From IMG/VR virus record IMGVR_UViG_3300032080_000021, positions 1-25,657 of that record: a stretch of DNA of 25,657 nt. One strand, given 5' to 3'. Below the pieces are notes generated by a model. It was given only the letters and a program-made list of their open reading frames with translations, had not been told where the DNA came from and did no database searches. Shown in pieces: positions 1,558 through 23,829 of the stretch; the first letter of the stretch is position 1; each line of letters begins with the position of its first letter. This stretch comes from a virus. Position numbers and translations under genes: made by a program.

Positions 1558-2292
1558 ATGAGCGAAACGACTACCACTCGACGACCCCTGACCATCCGCC
1601 AGCGCAACGGCCTAGTCGGAGACTTGCGCAAGGAACGCACCAAGAAACTCCCCGGCAAAGGCGACCTCACCTACATTGAATCGTGGGATGTGATCGCCAC
1701 CCTCATCAAGGTGTTCGGCTTCGGCGGATTCTCGTCCGAGCTACAGGACATGCAGATCATCAAGATCGAAACGGATGTCCCCAACGCCAGCGGCGGGACC
1801 ACCAAGTTCCGCGTCACGGCGATGGGCACCGTGAAGCTGACCATCCACCAGACCGGCGCGGTCTACACCGAAGCGGCGGCGACCTCGCAGTCCGGCGCAG
1901 TGATCGGTGACGTGATGGACTTCGCGATCAAGACCGTCGAGTCTGATGCGCTGAAGCGTGCGGCCCGGTTCCTCGGCACCCAGTTCGGCCTGTCGCTCTA
2001 CGACGACGGCAGGCTCACCGATGTCGTCGGTGTTGTGATGGCACCGGGCGGGGAATGCCCTCCGACCCCGGAGGAACTCGTCGAGTGGAACGCATGGGCC
2101 GACGAGCAGGACCGCATCCGCGCTGAGATGACCAAGGCGCAGGGCAGGGAAGGCGCGGCGGCTAATCCCCGGCTCGACACCGGCCCAGCCGAAGGCGTCA
2201 CCGACGAACAGCACGCCGACAACCTCGCCCTCGTGAACAAGGCGATCCGCTCCAAGAAACAGGCCGAAGCGAAAGCCGAAGCCACCACCTAG
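1558..2292 (+). CDS. Rad52/22-family single-strand annealing protein
   Basis: 244 residues. The family signature is visible twice: LTYIESWDVIATLIKVFGFG at about residues 37-56, then FSSEL, and a later block at about 119-150 containing DFAIKTVESDALKRAARFLG and QFGLSLYDDG. These match the DNA-binding core of phage Rad52-like annealases, which coat single-stranded DNA and pair complementary strands during recombination and replication. Past about residue 155 the tail is Ala/Glu/Lys-rich and probably flexible, a usual place for SSB contacts. The ATG at 1558 has no ribosome binding site but coincides with the predicted transcription start, so it is probably leaderless. The Cas4-like nuclease at 2669 is the likely partner: nuclease plus annealase is the standard two-component phage recombinase. 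Family assignment is confident; the partner is inferred. Confidence 0.88.
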   Translation: MSETTTTRRPLTIRQRNGLVGDLRKERTKKLPGKGDLTYIESWDVIATLIKVFGFGGFSSELQDMQIIKIETDVPNASGGTTKFRVTAMGTVKLTIHQTGAVYTEAAATSQSGAVIGDVMDFAIKTVESDALKRAARFLGTQFGLSLYDDGRLTDVVGVVMAPGGECPPTPEELVEWNAWADEQDRIRAEMTKAQGREGAAANPRLDTGPAEGVTDEQHADNLALVNKAIRSKKQAEAKAEATT

Positions 2293-2424
2293 ACCTGATG
2301 TATCCCGTCAACGTCACCCCGCCCGGACGGCCAAAAGCCGGCGCGGGGATCGAAGGCCCAACGCTTAGGCAGTGCCGACTTGTCGTTCAGTTCCCGGCAC
2401 CGGGCCTGCGGGGTACATCACCAA
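2293..2424 (+). ncRNA. tandem structured element, copy 1 (candidate RNA)
   Basis: Starts directly after the annealase stop codon. Closing stem P1 pairs 2297-2307 (GATGTATCCCG) with 2409-2419 (CGGGGTACATC): 11 pairs, one G-U. Inside are P2 (CCCCGC 2317-2322 with GCGGGG 2343-2348), P3 (GGCCC 2355-2359 with GGGCC 2402-2406) and P4 (GTGCCG 2372-2377 with CGGCAC 2395-2400). Flanks are ACCT before P1 and ACCAA after. Copy 2 follows with no spacer, the same flanks and a matching fold. It could act as a transcribed leader or ncRNA, or as a folded single-stranded DNA site such as an origin. Strand is assumed from the neighbouring genes. No known RNA family is recognised. Confidence 0.55.
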
Positions 2425-2548
2425 ACCTGATGCGTTCCGTCAACGTCACCCGCCCAACCAACACTGCTAGGGATAACGGGATCGAAGGTTCGGATAGTGG
2501 ATACCTGCATAGTCCACGGAACGCCGTTCCTGCGGAACGCATCACCAA
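2425..2548 (+). ncRNA. tandem structured element, copy 2 (candidate RNA)
   Basis: P1 pairs 2429-2439 (GATGCGTTCCG) with 2533-2543 (CGGAACGCATC), 11 perfect pairs. Against copy 1, stem positions 5, 6 and 8 change on both strands (T-A to C-G, A-T to G-C, C-G to T-A) and position 7 goes from T-G to T-A, so pairing is kept while sequence changes. P2 is CCCG (2449-2452) with CGGG (2477-2480); P4 is GTGGA (2497-2501) with TCCAC (2513-2517). Unpaired blocks are identical to copy 1: TCAACGTCACCC, GGGATCGAAGG, CCTGCGG and the ends ACCTGATG and CATCACCAA. An extra hairpin (GGAAC 2518-2522 with GTTCC 2526-2530) competes with the 3' arm of P1. Confidence 0.55.
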
Positions 2549-2550
2549 CT

Positions 2551-2638
2551 GTTGTGGCCCGGCCGGTCTATAAGGAGACTGCCCGGCGCTACGTGAGGAC
2601 GGACCACTTCATCGGTGGCAGTCGTTCCGGGCCACAAC
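2551..2638 (+). other. 12-bp inverted repeat with nested stem, leader of the nuclease gene
   Basis: GTTGTGGCCCGG (2551-2562) and CCGGGCCACAAC (2627-2638) are perfect reverse complements enclosing 64 bases. A second stem lies inside (GACTGCC 2577-2583 with GGCAGTC 2617-2623). It follows structured copy 2 and ends 30 bases before the nuclease ATG. It lacks the conserved blocks of copies 1 and 2, so it is a separate structure, perhaps a regulatory leader. Confidence 0.45.
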
Positions 2639-2668: not shown

Positions 2669-3745
2669 ATGAGCGAAGCACCAGTACAGGAATTTCTAGC
2701 CGAAACGGACGAGGGCGACACTCCCCGGTCCGGCGCACGCGAGATGTCCATGCTCGAACAGTTGTCGGCGGATACGGTCTACGGCGCGATCCAACATGCG
2801 GCGGACAACACCGACCGCGCCCGGCAGGCCGCAGAGTTCGTCCTCGGGGTGTCCAACCTTGGACACTGCCGACAGCACGCCGTCCTGACCGTCCGGCAAA
2901 CCCCGCCGTCAGACGTGCGGGACAAGACCGCCGCGTTCATCGGTCGAGTTCTCGGTGCCGCCATCGAGGAACAGATGAAGATCGAACACCCCGACTGGCT
3001 GTTCCAGTCCGAGGGCACCGTGACCGCACCGTCCGGCTGGGCGCTCGACGGCCACCCCGACATCGTGATCCCGGCCAGCGCCGCGACCGAAGAGTACCCG
3101 CAGGGCGTCTGGGATTTGAAGTCCAAGGACAAGCTCGAAGTCGTCAAACGGTACGGGCAGTCCAAACAGCAGAAGTACCAACTCGTCTCGTACTGCGAAG
3201 CGAAGATCGCGGACGGCACCCTCGACCCGGACCAGCCGATCTGGCTCGTCGATGTCTACTACGACAGGTCCGGCGCATCCGACGAGTGCTACGCCATCGG
3301 GTTCTGGTATGACCCGGCAGACATCAACGAGATTGACGACTGGGTGGGCGATGTCATCTACGCCGCCGCACACGGCGAGGACGCATCCCGCGACATGCCG
3401 CGTGAGTTCTGCTGGAAGTATTGCGAGTACGCCACGATCTGCCGTGGCCCTGACACCGACGTTGAGGGACTCATCGAGGATGTCGAAGTCAAGGCCGCTG
3501 TGGACATGTACCGCGAGGGCCTCGATCTGGTGACTGAGGGCGAGAAGCTGAAGAAAGAAGCGAAGGCGGTCATCCCACCGGGTTTATCTGGTTCCACCGG
3601 GGCAAACAATATCCGGTTCATCCACGTCAACGAGGCTGAGATGAAGGCGTACACCCGCAAGGCGTACGACCGCATCTCGGTGACGCCAACACCCGGCCCC
3701 GAGATGGCGAAGCCGAAACGTAAGACCCGCGCCAAGAAAGCCTGA
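2669..3745 (+). CDS. Cas4/RecB-like PD-(D/E)XK nuclease with likely Fe-S cluster
   Basis: 358 residues from ATG 2669, behind a purine-rich GAGAGACGAGAGAG stretch. The nuclease core is clear: GHPD with Asp131, then WDLKSK with Asp149 and Lys151 (the (D/E)-x-K pair), then a QxxxY motif (Gln171, Tyr175). Cys67 together with Cys248, Cys252 and Cys258 (FCWKYCEYATIC) gives the split four-cysteine pattern that holds a 4Fe-4S cluster in Cas4 and AddB-type nucleases. The basic tail (KPKRKTRAKKA) could contact DNA. Such enzymes resect double-stranded ends, and the Rad52-like annealase upstream is the expected partner for the exposed strand. A copy of the 16-bp palindrome is embedded in the codons just before Cys67. 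No CRISPR genes are nearby, so a recombination role is favoured. Confidence 0.85.
   Translation: MSEAPVQEFLAETDEGDTPRSGAREMSMLEQLSADTVYGAIQHAADNTDRARQAAEFVLGVSNLGHCRQHAVLTVRQTPPSDVRDKTAAFIGRVLGAAIEEQMKIEHPDWLFQSEGTVTAPSGWALDGHPDIVIPASAATEEYPQGVWDLKSKDKLEVVKRYGQSKQQKYQLVSYCEAKIADGTLDPDQPIWLVDVYYDRSGASDECYAIGFWYDPADINEIDDWVGDVIYAAAHGEDASRDMPREFCWKYCEYATICRGPDTDVEGLIEDVEVKAAVDMYREGLDLVTEGEKLKKEAKAVIPPGLSGSTGANNIRFIHVNEAEMKAYTRKAYDRISVTPTPGPEMAKPKRKTRAKKA
2850..2865. repeat. dispersed palindrome site 2, inside the nuclease gene
   Basis: TGTCCAACCTTGGACA, with outer G/C extending it to 2849-2866. Both 7-base arms are intact and only the centre (CC) breaks symmetry. Read here as Val-Ser-Asn-Leu-Gly-His. 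Confidence 0.85.
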
Positions 3746-4564: not shown

Positions 4565-4580
4565 TGTCCAAGCTTGGACA
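4565..4580. repeat. dispersed palindrome site 3, intergenic
   Basis: Perfect TGTCCAAGCTTGGACA two bases after a stop codon and directly before the repeated leader of the next gene (4583-4606). As with sites 1 and 5, it follows a stop codon almost immediately. Confidence 0.85.
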
Positions 4581-5148: not shown

Positions 5149-5600
5149 AGCGGCTACTGGTCACAGGGTCGCGGACGTGGACCGACCGGCAGGTCATCTA
5201 CGACGCGCTGTACGAGGCGTATCAGGAACTCGGCGGACCCGCCGAACAGATCGTCCTCGTCCACGGCGCGGCCAAAGGCGCGGACCTGATCGCGTCATCC
5301 GAGTGGAGCCGCAACGCCGGAATGGATCAGGAACCACACAGGGCGATGTGGGAAATGTTCGGGAAGAAAGCAGGCCGGCTTAGGAATGAGGTGATGGTTC
5401 AGCGGGGCGCAGACCTCTGCTTGGCATTCATTGTTGATGGGTCCAGCGGCGCGAGTCATTGCGCGGCGCTGGCTGAGGAAGCGGGCATCCCGGTCAGGTA
5501 TTTCCGGGTGTCCAATCTTGGACAGGAGACGGACGATGGCGACAGTTCAGATATGCGACCAGTGCGGGAGGCAGGGAAAGATGCCGTATCAGGTGACTGA
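5145..5600 (+). CDS. DUF2493 / SLOG-superfamily (YspA/YpsA-like) protein
   Basis: 151 residues from GTG 5145 (overlap with the upstream TGA). The Rossmann-like SLOG pattern is plain: KRLLVTGSRTWTD at the N-terminus, a second strand and glycine loop VLVHGAAKGADLIAS (about 46-60), then the family's GRLRNEVM and ADLCLAFIVDGSSGA. SLOG proteins are thought to bind nucleotides or nucleotide-derived ligands; phage versions have no settled role. The usual family end (IPVRYFR) is reached at about residue 121. The remaining 30 residues begin with palindrome site 4, read as VSNLGQ, and overlap the next gene by 65 bases, so the C-terminal tail may be an unselected read-through. Confidence 0.82.
   Translation: MKRLLVTGSRTWTDRQVIYDALYEAYQELGGPAEQIVLVHGAAKGADLIASSEWSRNAGMDQEPHRAMWEMFGKKAGRLRNEVMVQRGADLCLAFIVDGSSGASHCAALAEEAGIPVRYFRVSNLGQETDDGDSSDMRPVREAGKDAVSGD
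5509..5524. repeat. dispersed palindrome site 4, gene end / next gene's start region
   Basis: TGTCCAATCTTGGACA: both arms perfect, centre TC. It lies inside the tail of the SLOG gene and 11 bases before the ATG of the zinc-ribbon gene, with that gene's ribosome binding site (AGGAGA 5524-5529) touching its last base. A bound protein here could block translation or transcription of the gene at 5536. Confidence 0.85.
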
Positions 5601-7887: not shown

Positions 7888-7903
7888 TGTCCAAGCTTGG
7901 ACA
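7888..7903. repeat. dispersed palindrome site 5, convergent junction
   Basis: Perfect TGTCCAAGCTTGGACA (18 bp with flanking G/C, 7887-7904), directly after the stop codon of the RusA-like gene and four bases before the terminator stem. Its place at the meeting point of the two transcription blocks fits a stoperator-like site better than a promoter operator. Confidence 0.85.
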
Positions 7904-11242: not shown

Positions 11243-12226
11243 CTAGAGCACTATCGCCATAGCTACCGCTGTAGCTCTGATGGTATCGAGAGCCTGCTGT
11301 GCCGCCAGTGCCGAAGCCGCCGCCGCGTCGGCGCTCTGCCCGGTGGACTGTCCAAGATTGGACACCTCAGCCGCTTTGTTCACCGCTGTCGTAGCCGCCG
11401 CCTGCGCCTCATCACGGGCGTTCAGCGTGACCGACTGCGCCGTGAGAACCGTGGACCTCGCCGCCTGCGCGTCGTCGCGTGCCGCCTGAGCGTCATTCCT
11501 TGCCGACACCGCCGCGTCCCTTGCACCCTCGGCCCCGGTACGCGCCGCGTTCGCCGCCGTCGCCGCCGTCTGCGCGAGTCCGGCAGATGCCACCGCGTTG
11601 TCCTCGGAGAGGCCCGCGTCGTCAGCGGAGTTCCCGGCCTCGGCCATAGCGAGTTCCGCCACCGCCGCGTAACCCTCAGCGTCGTTCCGGTGGGACAGGG
11701 CAATGGCCGCTGACTCCCCGGCGTTGAACGCACTCGACCCGGCCCGGTCAGCGGATTCTTCAGCCAATGTGGCGGACACGGCGGCAGAGTCCTGAGAATC
11801 CACCGCCGCATCCTGAGCGGCCTCAGCGGCTTCCCTACTTCCCCTAGCGTCAGCCGCCGCAAGAGCCGCCTGAGTCGCCAGTGTATCCACATGCCCGTAC
11901 CAAGCGGGATCAGGCGTGCCCGAATCCGGGTTCAACGTCGCCGGGTCCACCTTCACCAGATCGTCGTACTGGATAGGCTCGACCGCATCCGGCACCAGCA
12001 CGTATTCGATCCGGGCCTGCCCGAAAGCGACGTTCACCGCGACCTTCCACGCCCCGCCGAGCGGGGTCGGGGACAGTTCAACGGCCTCGAACCCGTCAGC
12101 GCCGACCGACGCGGTGAAGCTGGACGCATCCAGAGTCCCCATCGGGGTGAACCGGACCCTGCCGTCAGCGGGCACCTCGACGCCCTCCGGGTCGGTGCGC
12201 GTAAGCGTGAAGTTCACGGTGGACAT
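11243..12226 (-). CDS. tail fibre stalk-like protein with Ala-rich coiled coil
   Basis: 327 residues from ATG 12226, behind TAGGAGCAGAG. About residues 1-110 are a beta domain (VNFTLTRTDPEGVEVPADGR, LGGAWKVAVNVAFGQARIEY), of the kind that anchors fibres to a tail tip. Residues 115-325 are Ala/Asp/Ser-rich with repeating heptad-like Ala-x2-Ala spacing (EAAEAAQDAAVDSQDSAA), a long parallel coiled coil. No globular C-terminal domain follows, so the next protein (852 aa) may provide the tip. Palindrome site 6 is encoded in the stalk as VSNLGQ, breaking the Ala pattern for six residues, which suggests the DNA rather than the protein is selected there. Confidence 0.7.
   Translation of the reverse strand: MSTVNFTLTRTDPEGVEVPADGRVRFTPMGTLDASSFTASVGADGFEAVELSPTPLGGAWKVAVNVAFGQARIEYVLVPDAVEPIQYDDLVKVDPATLNPDSGTPDPAWYGHVDTLATQAALAAADARGSREAAEAAQDAAVDSQDSAAVSATLAEESADRAGSSAFNAGESAAIALSHRNDAEGYAAVAELAMAEAGNSADDAGLSEDNAVASAGLAQTAATAANAARTGAEGARDAAVSARNDAQAARDDAQAARSTVLTAQSVTLNARDEAQAAATTAVNKAAEVSNLGQSTGQSADAAAASALAAQQALDTIRATAVAMAIVL
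11349..11364. repeat. dispersed palindrome site 6, inside the stalk gene
   Basis: TGTCCAAGATTGGACA, both arms perfect, centre GA (TC on the coding strand). Read by the leftward gene as Val-Ser-Asn-Leu-Gly-Gln, the same frame as sites 2 and 4, although the three proteins are unrelated. Confidence 0.85.
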
Positions 12227-23813: not shown

Positions 23814-23829
23814 TGTCCAAGCTTGGACA
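23814..23829. repeat. dispersed palindrome site 10, intergenic, before the chaperone gene
   Basis: Perfect TGTCCAAGCTTGGACA in the 61-base gap between the HK97 gp10-like gene and the chaperone start (GTG 23785). No promoter is evident beside it. It lies within the structural operon, where a bound protein could act as a roadblock. Confidence 0.85.

Follow-up and report, generated by a model that had tools for sequence, protein, structure and literature searches.

Besides tRNAs, few conserved non-coding RNAs are known in double-stranded DNA phages, and the cases that are understood, namely pRNA and put RNA, revealed new mechanisms. The pRNA of phi29 is built on a three-way junction and is a feature of phi29-like phages, where it is encoded close to a genome end. 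The put RNA of phage HK022 is also phage-encoded and needs no phage protein; in the early operons it works in cis, with RNA polymerase as its target (PMC9378689). Other structured RNAs that invite comparison are the phage tRNAs and the stable-RNA clusters, the hammerhead and other small self-cleaving ribozymes, and the small RNAs of Gram-positive bacteria, in which C/U-rich loops pair with Shine-Dalgarno sites.

The window considered here is a viral DNA stretch of 25,657 nucleotides (IMG/VR record IMGVR_UViG_3300032080_000021), which contains two adjacent structured units (table 1). Both belong to an RNA family that had not been described before, of which 144 distinct elements were recovered (77-152 nt when 10 bp of the closing helix P1 are included), all with one architecture, a three-way junction of the form P1-G[UCAA]C-P2-G[AA]G-P3-C[UG]C-P1'.

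With phage tRNA genes and stable-RNA clusters the elements share the traits of small structured RNAs with a terminal helix, co-transcription (inferred for the element), exchange as cassettes and presence in one or a few copies per phage, and they adjoin phage tRNA genes in 11 loci. They differ from tRNAs in having a closing stem of 11-13 bp, three arms only, no T-loop and no CCA-tailed 7-bp acceptor. A tRNA or tRNA-like identity was rejected, with 0 genes called by ARAGORN in the window and no RF00005 match at the elements; the resemblance of the 3' end to a tRNA acceptor, pointed out in the initial annotation, is not homology, although elements often adjoin real tRNA genes. The three-way junction is shared with the phi29 pRNA, but the junction sequence differs, and the elements are found at many positions in larger genomes with siphovirus-type tail genes; a phi29-type pRNA was excluded on the basis of this spread over the genomes and of the lack of an Rfam match. 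As for put RNA, no partner protein has been found for the element; unlike put RNA, it forms a three-way junction, and its positions are unrelated to one another, operon ends included. A riboswitch or put-type cis regulator is also poorly supported, given the inconsistent types of downstream genes and a pairing with the element's own Shine-Dalgarno site that is no better than with swapped ones. The arrangement of three helices about a small invariant core and the scattered occurrence in phages recall the hammerhead and other small self-cleaving ribozymes, but the UCAA/AA/UG junction differs from the CUGANGA/GAAA/UH hammerhead core and there is no Rfam hammerhead match. Finally, part of the family exposes a UCCUUUC-type loop like that of the Gram-positive small RNAs; in contrast to these, only a third of the members carry it, no target has been shown, and it is the junction, rather than the loop, that is conserved.

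The initial annotation had described two head-to-tail units without spacing, with shared sequence blocks and with closing stems of 11 bp that differ at four pairs, three of them compensatory. This description held: the units abut, the blocks are shared as stated, and unit 1 differs from unit 2 at four pairs (U-A to C-G, A-U to G-C, U.G to U-A and C-G to U-A), of which three have changed on both sides. Direct reading of the sequence gives closing stems of 12 bp, of which the 11 bp initially reported are the inner part. Folding of the + strand was equalled by 0/200 and 1/200 shuffles for units 1 and 2, respectively (z-scores in table 1), and that of the - strand is weaker (z=-1.35 and -2.14). 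A covariance model (R2), built from an alignment of 75 elements (A5) from which the window and its relatives were excluded, recovered both units in 502 kb with the E-values listed in table 1; thus, the units are not due to chance. No promoter or terminator was found in the window's array. A third stem-closed structure follows unit 2 after the same spacer of approximately 6 nt, without the conserved junction core; it may be a diverged or a different unit, and its membership of the family is uncertain.

Table 1. Positions of the structured units, of their parts and of the flanking genes in the window.
Feature	Position	Strand	Evidence and remarks
Rad52-family single-strand annealing protein gene	1558-2292	+	Pfam PF04098, E=1.2e-16; directly upstream of array
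Unit 1, three-way-junction RNA element	2293-2424	+	R2 model E=3.0e-4; folding z=-3.58
Unit 1 P1, 5' strand	2296-2307	+	Partner 2409-2420; sequence and covariation in family
Unit 1 J1/2 UCAA	2308-2311	+	Conserved in A1/A5 alignments and syntenic Arthrobacter phage copies
Unit 1 CGAAGG: P2 end, J2/3 AA (2353-2354), P3 start	2351-2356	+	A1/A5 alignments, syntenic copies
Unit 1 CC (P3 close) and J3/1 UG	2405-2408	+	A1/A5 alignments, syntenic copies
Unit 1 P1, 3' strand	2409-2420	+	Sequence, folding
Unit 2, three-way-junction RNA element	2425-2548	+	R2 model E=5.4e-5; folding z=-2.89
Unit 2 P1, 5' strand	2428-2439	+	Partner 2533-2544; sequence
Unit 2 J1/2 UCAA	2440-2443	+	Sequence, A5 alignment
Unit 2 CGAAGG, including J2/3 AA (2485-2486)	2483-2488	+	Sequence, A5 alignment
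Unit 2 CC (P3 close) and J3/1 UG	2529-2532	+	Sequence, A5 alignment
Unit 2 P1, 3' strand	2533-2544	+	Sequence
Third stem-closed structure, 12-bp P1 (2551-2562/2627-2638)	2551-2638	+	z=-3.29; 8 bits with model R1
PD-(D/E)XK (Cas4/RecB-like) exonuclease gene	2669-3745	+	Pfam PF12705, E=1.8e-4; downstream of array

The family loci were gathered by scanning viral contigs with the core words, and they come from many unrelated phages. The constant part across members is G[UCAA]C - G[AA]G - C[UG]C, an invariance that is partly the result of construction because most members were collected via exact core words; independent evidence for the core is provided by copies located by synteny and by anchor-free model matches. 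In the latter, covariation extends even to the pairs that border the junction, as with the P2 closing pair of L185 (G-C to A-U), a P3 pair in the second copy of L184 (G-C to U-A) and a P1 pair of L081 (C-G to A-U). A non-circular test of P1 showed that 33 of 121 matches found with the core words only extend by at least 7 more in-register pairs, as opposed to 0-1 in shifted registers. Both in A5 and in an alignment of 39 elements (A1), 88% of the cells are paired, and A5, with 36-49% paired in slid controls, contains 310 double-changed cells as compared with 96 in shuffles; for example, the P2 pair at alignment positions 17-57 is C-G in 33 cases, G-C in 12, U-A in 9 and A-U in 7. Internal P1 positions comprise 952 Watson-Crick, 20 G.U and 8 A.C pairs. 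The excess of G.U over A.C is as expected of a sense-strand RNA but small, and G.U pairs are favoured by the model search as such, so that the pair counts alone, with their few G.U pairs, leave a DNA-level role open as a possibility. An atypical member, L186, has almost no P2. In a subfamily (L075 1833-1959, L089 8844-8966, L096 6408-6530 and similar elements) a second conserved block, CUGCCAUGAA, was observed on the 3' side of P3, and it may represent an additional internal motif of that subfamily.

In an Rfam 15 cmscan that covered the window together with 28 loci bearing elements, no family reached the gathering threshold at any element, and a scan of positions 2250-2700 at relaxed E-value yielded only a chance miRNA match. 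The open-access literature that was searched (subscription papers and most preprints were outside its coverage) contains nothing on such an RNA. The family is therefore called new. The initial annotation had inferred a real fold from covariation within the pair, had suggested a new phage non-coding RNA, and had proposed a covariance-model search and an Rfam scan as checks. The fold held, with pairing conserved across the 144 distinct elements, and the non-coding RNA held as a new family, although a discrete RNA has not been shown; the former check led to a large family and the latter to no match. The outcomes that it considered as a refutation, namely unconserved pairing or conserved codons with synonymous changes, were not seen, and the range of element lengths is not frame-preserving.

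In the window, the stop codon of the Rad52-family gene lies 3 nt before P1 of unit 1, and the array is located within a + strand gene block, the structural genes being on the - strand. The PD-(D/E)XK exonuclease is homologous to exonucleases of Arthrobacter phages, which encode the same pair of Rad52-family and exonuclease proteins. In BruhMoment, Odyssey395 and Ranunculus the gap between these two genes contains one unit, located by synteny without any sequence anchor, in which the core is kept and most of the other sequence has changed; the R2 model scores the Arthrobacter phage copies at E values from 6e-9 to 1.3e-3. In Tank, Wilde, Rizwana, SilentRX and AWGoat the gap lacks a unit and contains plain hairpins only, and a search of the complete sequences of four non-carrier relatives gave no R2 match with E <0.2. 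The gaps of phages without the element (L004-L013) hold one or two very stable plain hairpins, and thus the gap tends to be structured group-wide. A DNA search of named phages with the window's units gave no real match, while the same search with other members identified one Arthrobacter phage group, Bridgettevirus and RootBeer.

A separate observation concerns a 16-bp palindrome, TGTCCAANNTTGGACA, which occurs 10 times in the window, nine of them exactly, as compared with 0.07 expected (1503-1518, 2850-2865, 4565-4580, 5509-5524, 7888-7903, 11349-11364, 14205-14220, 16380-16395, 19864-19879 and 23814-23829). The sites are present in both early and late regions, one of them just 5' of a promoter-like site at 1524-1552, and the palindrome is absent from every other locus of the analysis. 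Judged from sequence alone, the set may be a repressor operator/stoperator set.

Across the family, the best upstream gene candidate is on the strand of the element in 112 of the 126 cases with a call, a figure that is lowered by errors of the simple gene caller. Genes of unrelated kinds flank the elements (those for the major and minor head proteins, the terminase, scaffold and portal proteins, HNH, exonuclease, primase and Rad52), and the element often starts 3-20 nt past a stop codon. A Shine-Dalgarno sequence with a start codon follows 67 of 144 elements at a distance of up to 70 nt (47%, 20% for random positions), and intrinsic terminators downstream of elements are limited to 4/144. L096 and L280 directly precede such a terminator, which leaves no downstream gene to regulate. 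Elements that are 80-85% alike occur in non-homologous flanks, with homology ending near the P1 ends except for up to approximately 20 nt upstream. The presence of near-identical elements in unrelated flanks thus indicates lateral exchange as cassettes.

Eleven elements lie 2-115 nt from a tRNA gene, always on the same strand, while about 0.7 would be expected, and 9 of these 11 tRNAs are Rfam-confirmed. ARAGORN alone placed a tRNA no more than 120 nt away from 8 elements (random placement within these loci would give 0.67), the tRNAs at L124 and L128 being calls without Rfam confirmation, and Rfam added the neighbours of L118 (2 nt), L104 (43 nt) and L329 (45 nt). At L118 (4820-5140, - strand), where the Rfam tRNA is downstream, the apparent 3' end of another tRNA was observed approximately 50 nt upstream. 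A comparison of ORFs between carriers and non-carriers revealed no protein family that spans all examined carriers and is missing from non-carriers.

When 84,980 genomes of bacteria and archaea were scanned with a strict pattern, 12 of the 16 matches were credible, all of them in Actinomycetota; the four weak ones (L159, L170-L172) were dropped as they lie inside coding ORFs. Elements were present in 5/400 genomes of Microbacteriaceae and in 2/396 across the phylum, a low frequency as expected for prophages, which the bacterial occurrences probably are, although the loci have not been individually checked for prophage genes. A plasmid search with four elements gave no match. Of the 60 whole records that bear the element, 53 have a single copy, and tandem arrays were found in the window and G851 (2 units each), G852 (3) and G846/L301 (4 by eye, two with altered cores). 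The three- to four-unit arrays of L301 (8183-8700, - strand) and L307 (2731-3100, - strand) have CAAG replacing GAAG in some units, and an ORF (MKTTRPAS...) runs through part of the array; a coding function is disfavoured by a frameshift between units in L301. The L301 array precedes a protein that resembles, by eye, a YqaJ-type exonuclease.

The variable arms are enriched in the word UCCUUUC (CCTTTC in 30 elements, 3.9 expected; TCCTTT in 21, 1.9 expected), which is found in either P2 or P3, is mostly unpaired and, with close variants, is present in 40 of 127 elements, or about a third. UCCUUUC corresponds to the 3' tail of 16S rRNA, i.e. the anti-Shine-Dalgarno. In cis, the loops pair with their own downstream Shine-Dalgarno site or flanks no better than with swapped ones, and P2-P3 loop kissing showed no convincing self-preference. 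From the lack of preference for its own downstream site it follows that the word, if important, probably acts in trans, and from its limited occurrence that it does not represent a universal function, the universal feature being the junction. That the pyrimidine-rich loops point to translation as the target remains a possibility, both target and mechanism being inferred.

The best explanation of a usually single-copy, sense-strand, context-independent, tRNA-associated and laterally exchanged fold is a trans-acting stable RNA. We thus propose that the elements form a new family of phage-encoded RNAs of this type, the junction of which is bound by a host factor, with translation as the most likely target, a proposal that we regard as being as likely to be right as wrong. 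Each unit would be transcribed within a phage operon and would fold into three arms around the fixed G[UCAA]C, G[AA]G, C[UG]C core, sealed by the long P1 helix, to act in trans as a discrete RNA like the adjacent phage tRNAs. The invariant junction would be recognized by a host factor common to Actinobacteria, while the variable arms would display a pyrimidine-rich loop, with the anti-Shine-Dalgarno word in approximately one-third of the members. Because of the latter, translation, by way of the Shine-Dalgarno sites of mRNAs or of the ribosome, would be the most likely target. The sequences themselves show the fold and its core, the sense orientation, the small number of copies, the tandem arrays, the variety of contexts, the tRNA adjacency and the cassette exchange, whereas transcription and processing to a separate RNA, action in trans, the host partner and the translation target are only inferred, with no RNA-seq data. 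What is expected of a trans-acting stable RNA is met as far as independence of gene function, usual single copy, sense strand and stable-RNA neighbourhood are concerned. Against it are the 47% of elements followed closely by a Shine-Dalgarno site and a start codon, as expected of a cis-acting 5' UTR element, and the scarcity of G.U pairs in P1, and against the translation reading is the restriction of the anti-Shine-Dalgarno-like word to 40/127 elements. A riboregulator or decoy role, as the initial annotation had suggested, remains possible.

None of the alternatives accounts for the combination of data, although each covers some of them. The one that survives best, and remains possible, is a cis-acting mRNA element, a compact intercistronic barrier like REP and exonuclease-blocking structures, which would either protect the upstream 3' end or a fresh downstream 5' end from exonucleases or separate the expression of adjacent genes. 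It is supported by the frequent start shortly past a stop codon, the frequent position downstream of highly expressed capsid and minor head genes, and the strong plain hairpins that element-free Arthrobacter relatives hold in the Rad52-exonuclease gap. However, there is usually one copy per genome despite dozens of gene junctions, a plain hairpin does not need an invariant junction, and clustering with tRNA genes is not accounted for. A new class of self-cleaving ribozyme, with a hammerhead-like three-way junction scattered in phage genomes, is unlikely. The short invariant unpaired junction with three variable arms, the single copies in varied phage contexts and the lack of an Rfam match to known ribozyme families would fit it, but there are no cleavage data, the hammerhead core is missing, and the long GC-rich P1 would keep the cleavage products joined. 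Still less probable is a DNA-level element acting as single-stranded or cruciform DNA, such as an origin, a primosome assembly site or a recombination site. The usual single copy, the nearly strict Watson-Crick P1 and the recombination genes adjoining the elements in the window, its relatives and L301 are in its favour. Against it are the orientation, which follows the local coding strand, the better folding of the sense strand, the modest excess of G.U over A.C, the tRNA clustering, the tandem arrays and the absence from close relatives; the origin-type hairpin that had been suggested initially is less likely for the orientation, clustering and arrays. A riboswitch-like or put-like antiterminator regulating the downstream gene in cis is the least likely, since the 67/144 elements with a Shine-Dalgarno site and start downstream and the tandem units, as in some riboswitches, are outweighed by downstream genes without common function, by the terminator or tRNA that follows some elements and by loops that pair no better with their own Shine-Dalgarno site than with those of others.

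A bolder version of the trans-acting stable RNA proposal, which we would not favour over its negation, is that of a phylum-specific mobile cassette, co-encoded with tRNAs in some phages, whose junction would be bound by a conserved actinobacterial host factor in favour of infection, and whose anti-Shine-Dalgarno loops would act on translation in part of the family. The family, which is widespread in actinobacterial phages, including cultured Arthrobacter phages, and has a sharply defined core amenable to mutagenesis, offers an immediate route to a phage-host RNA interaction, and the models and alignments would allow its annotation in existing phage genomes.
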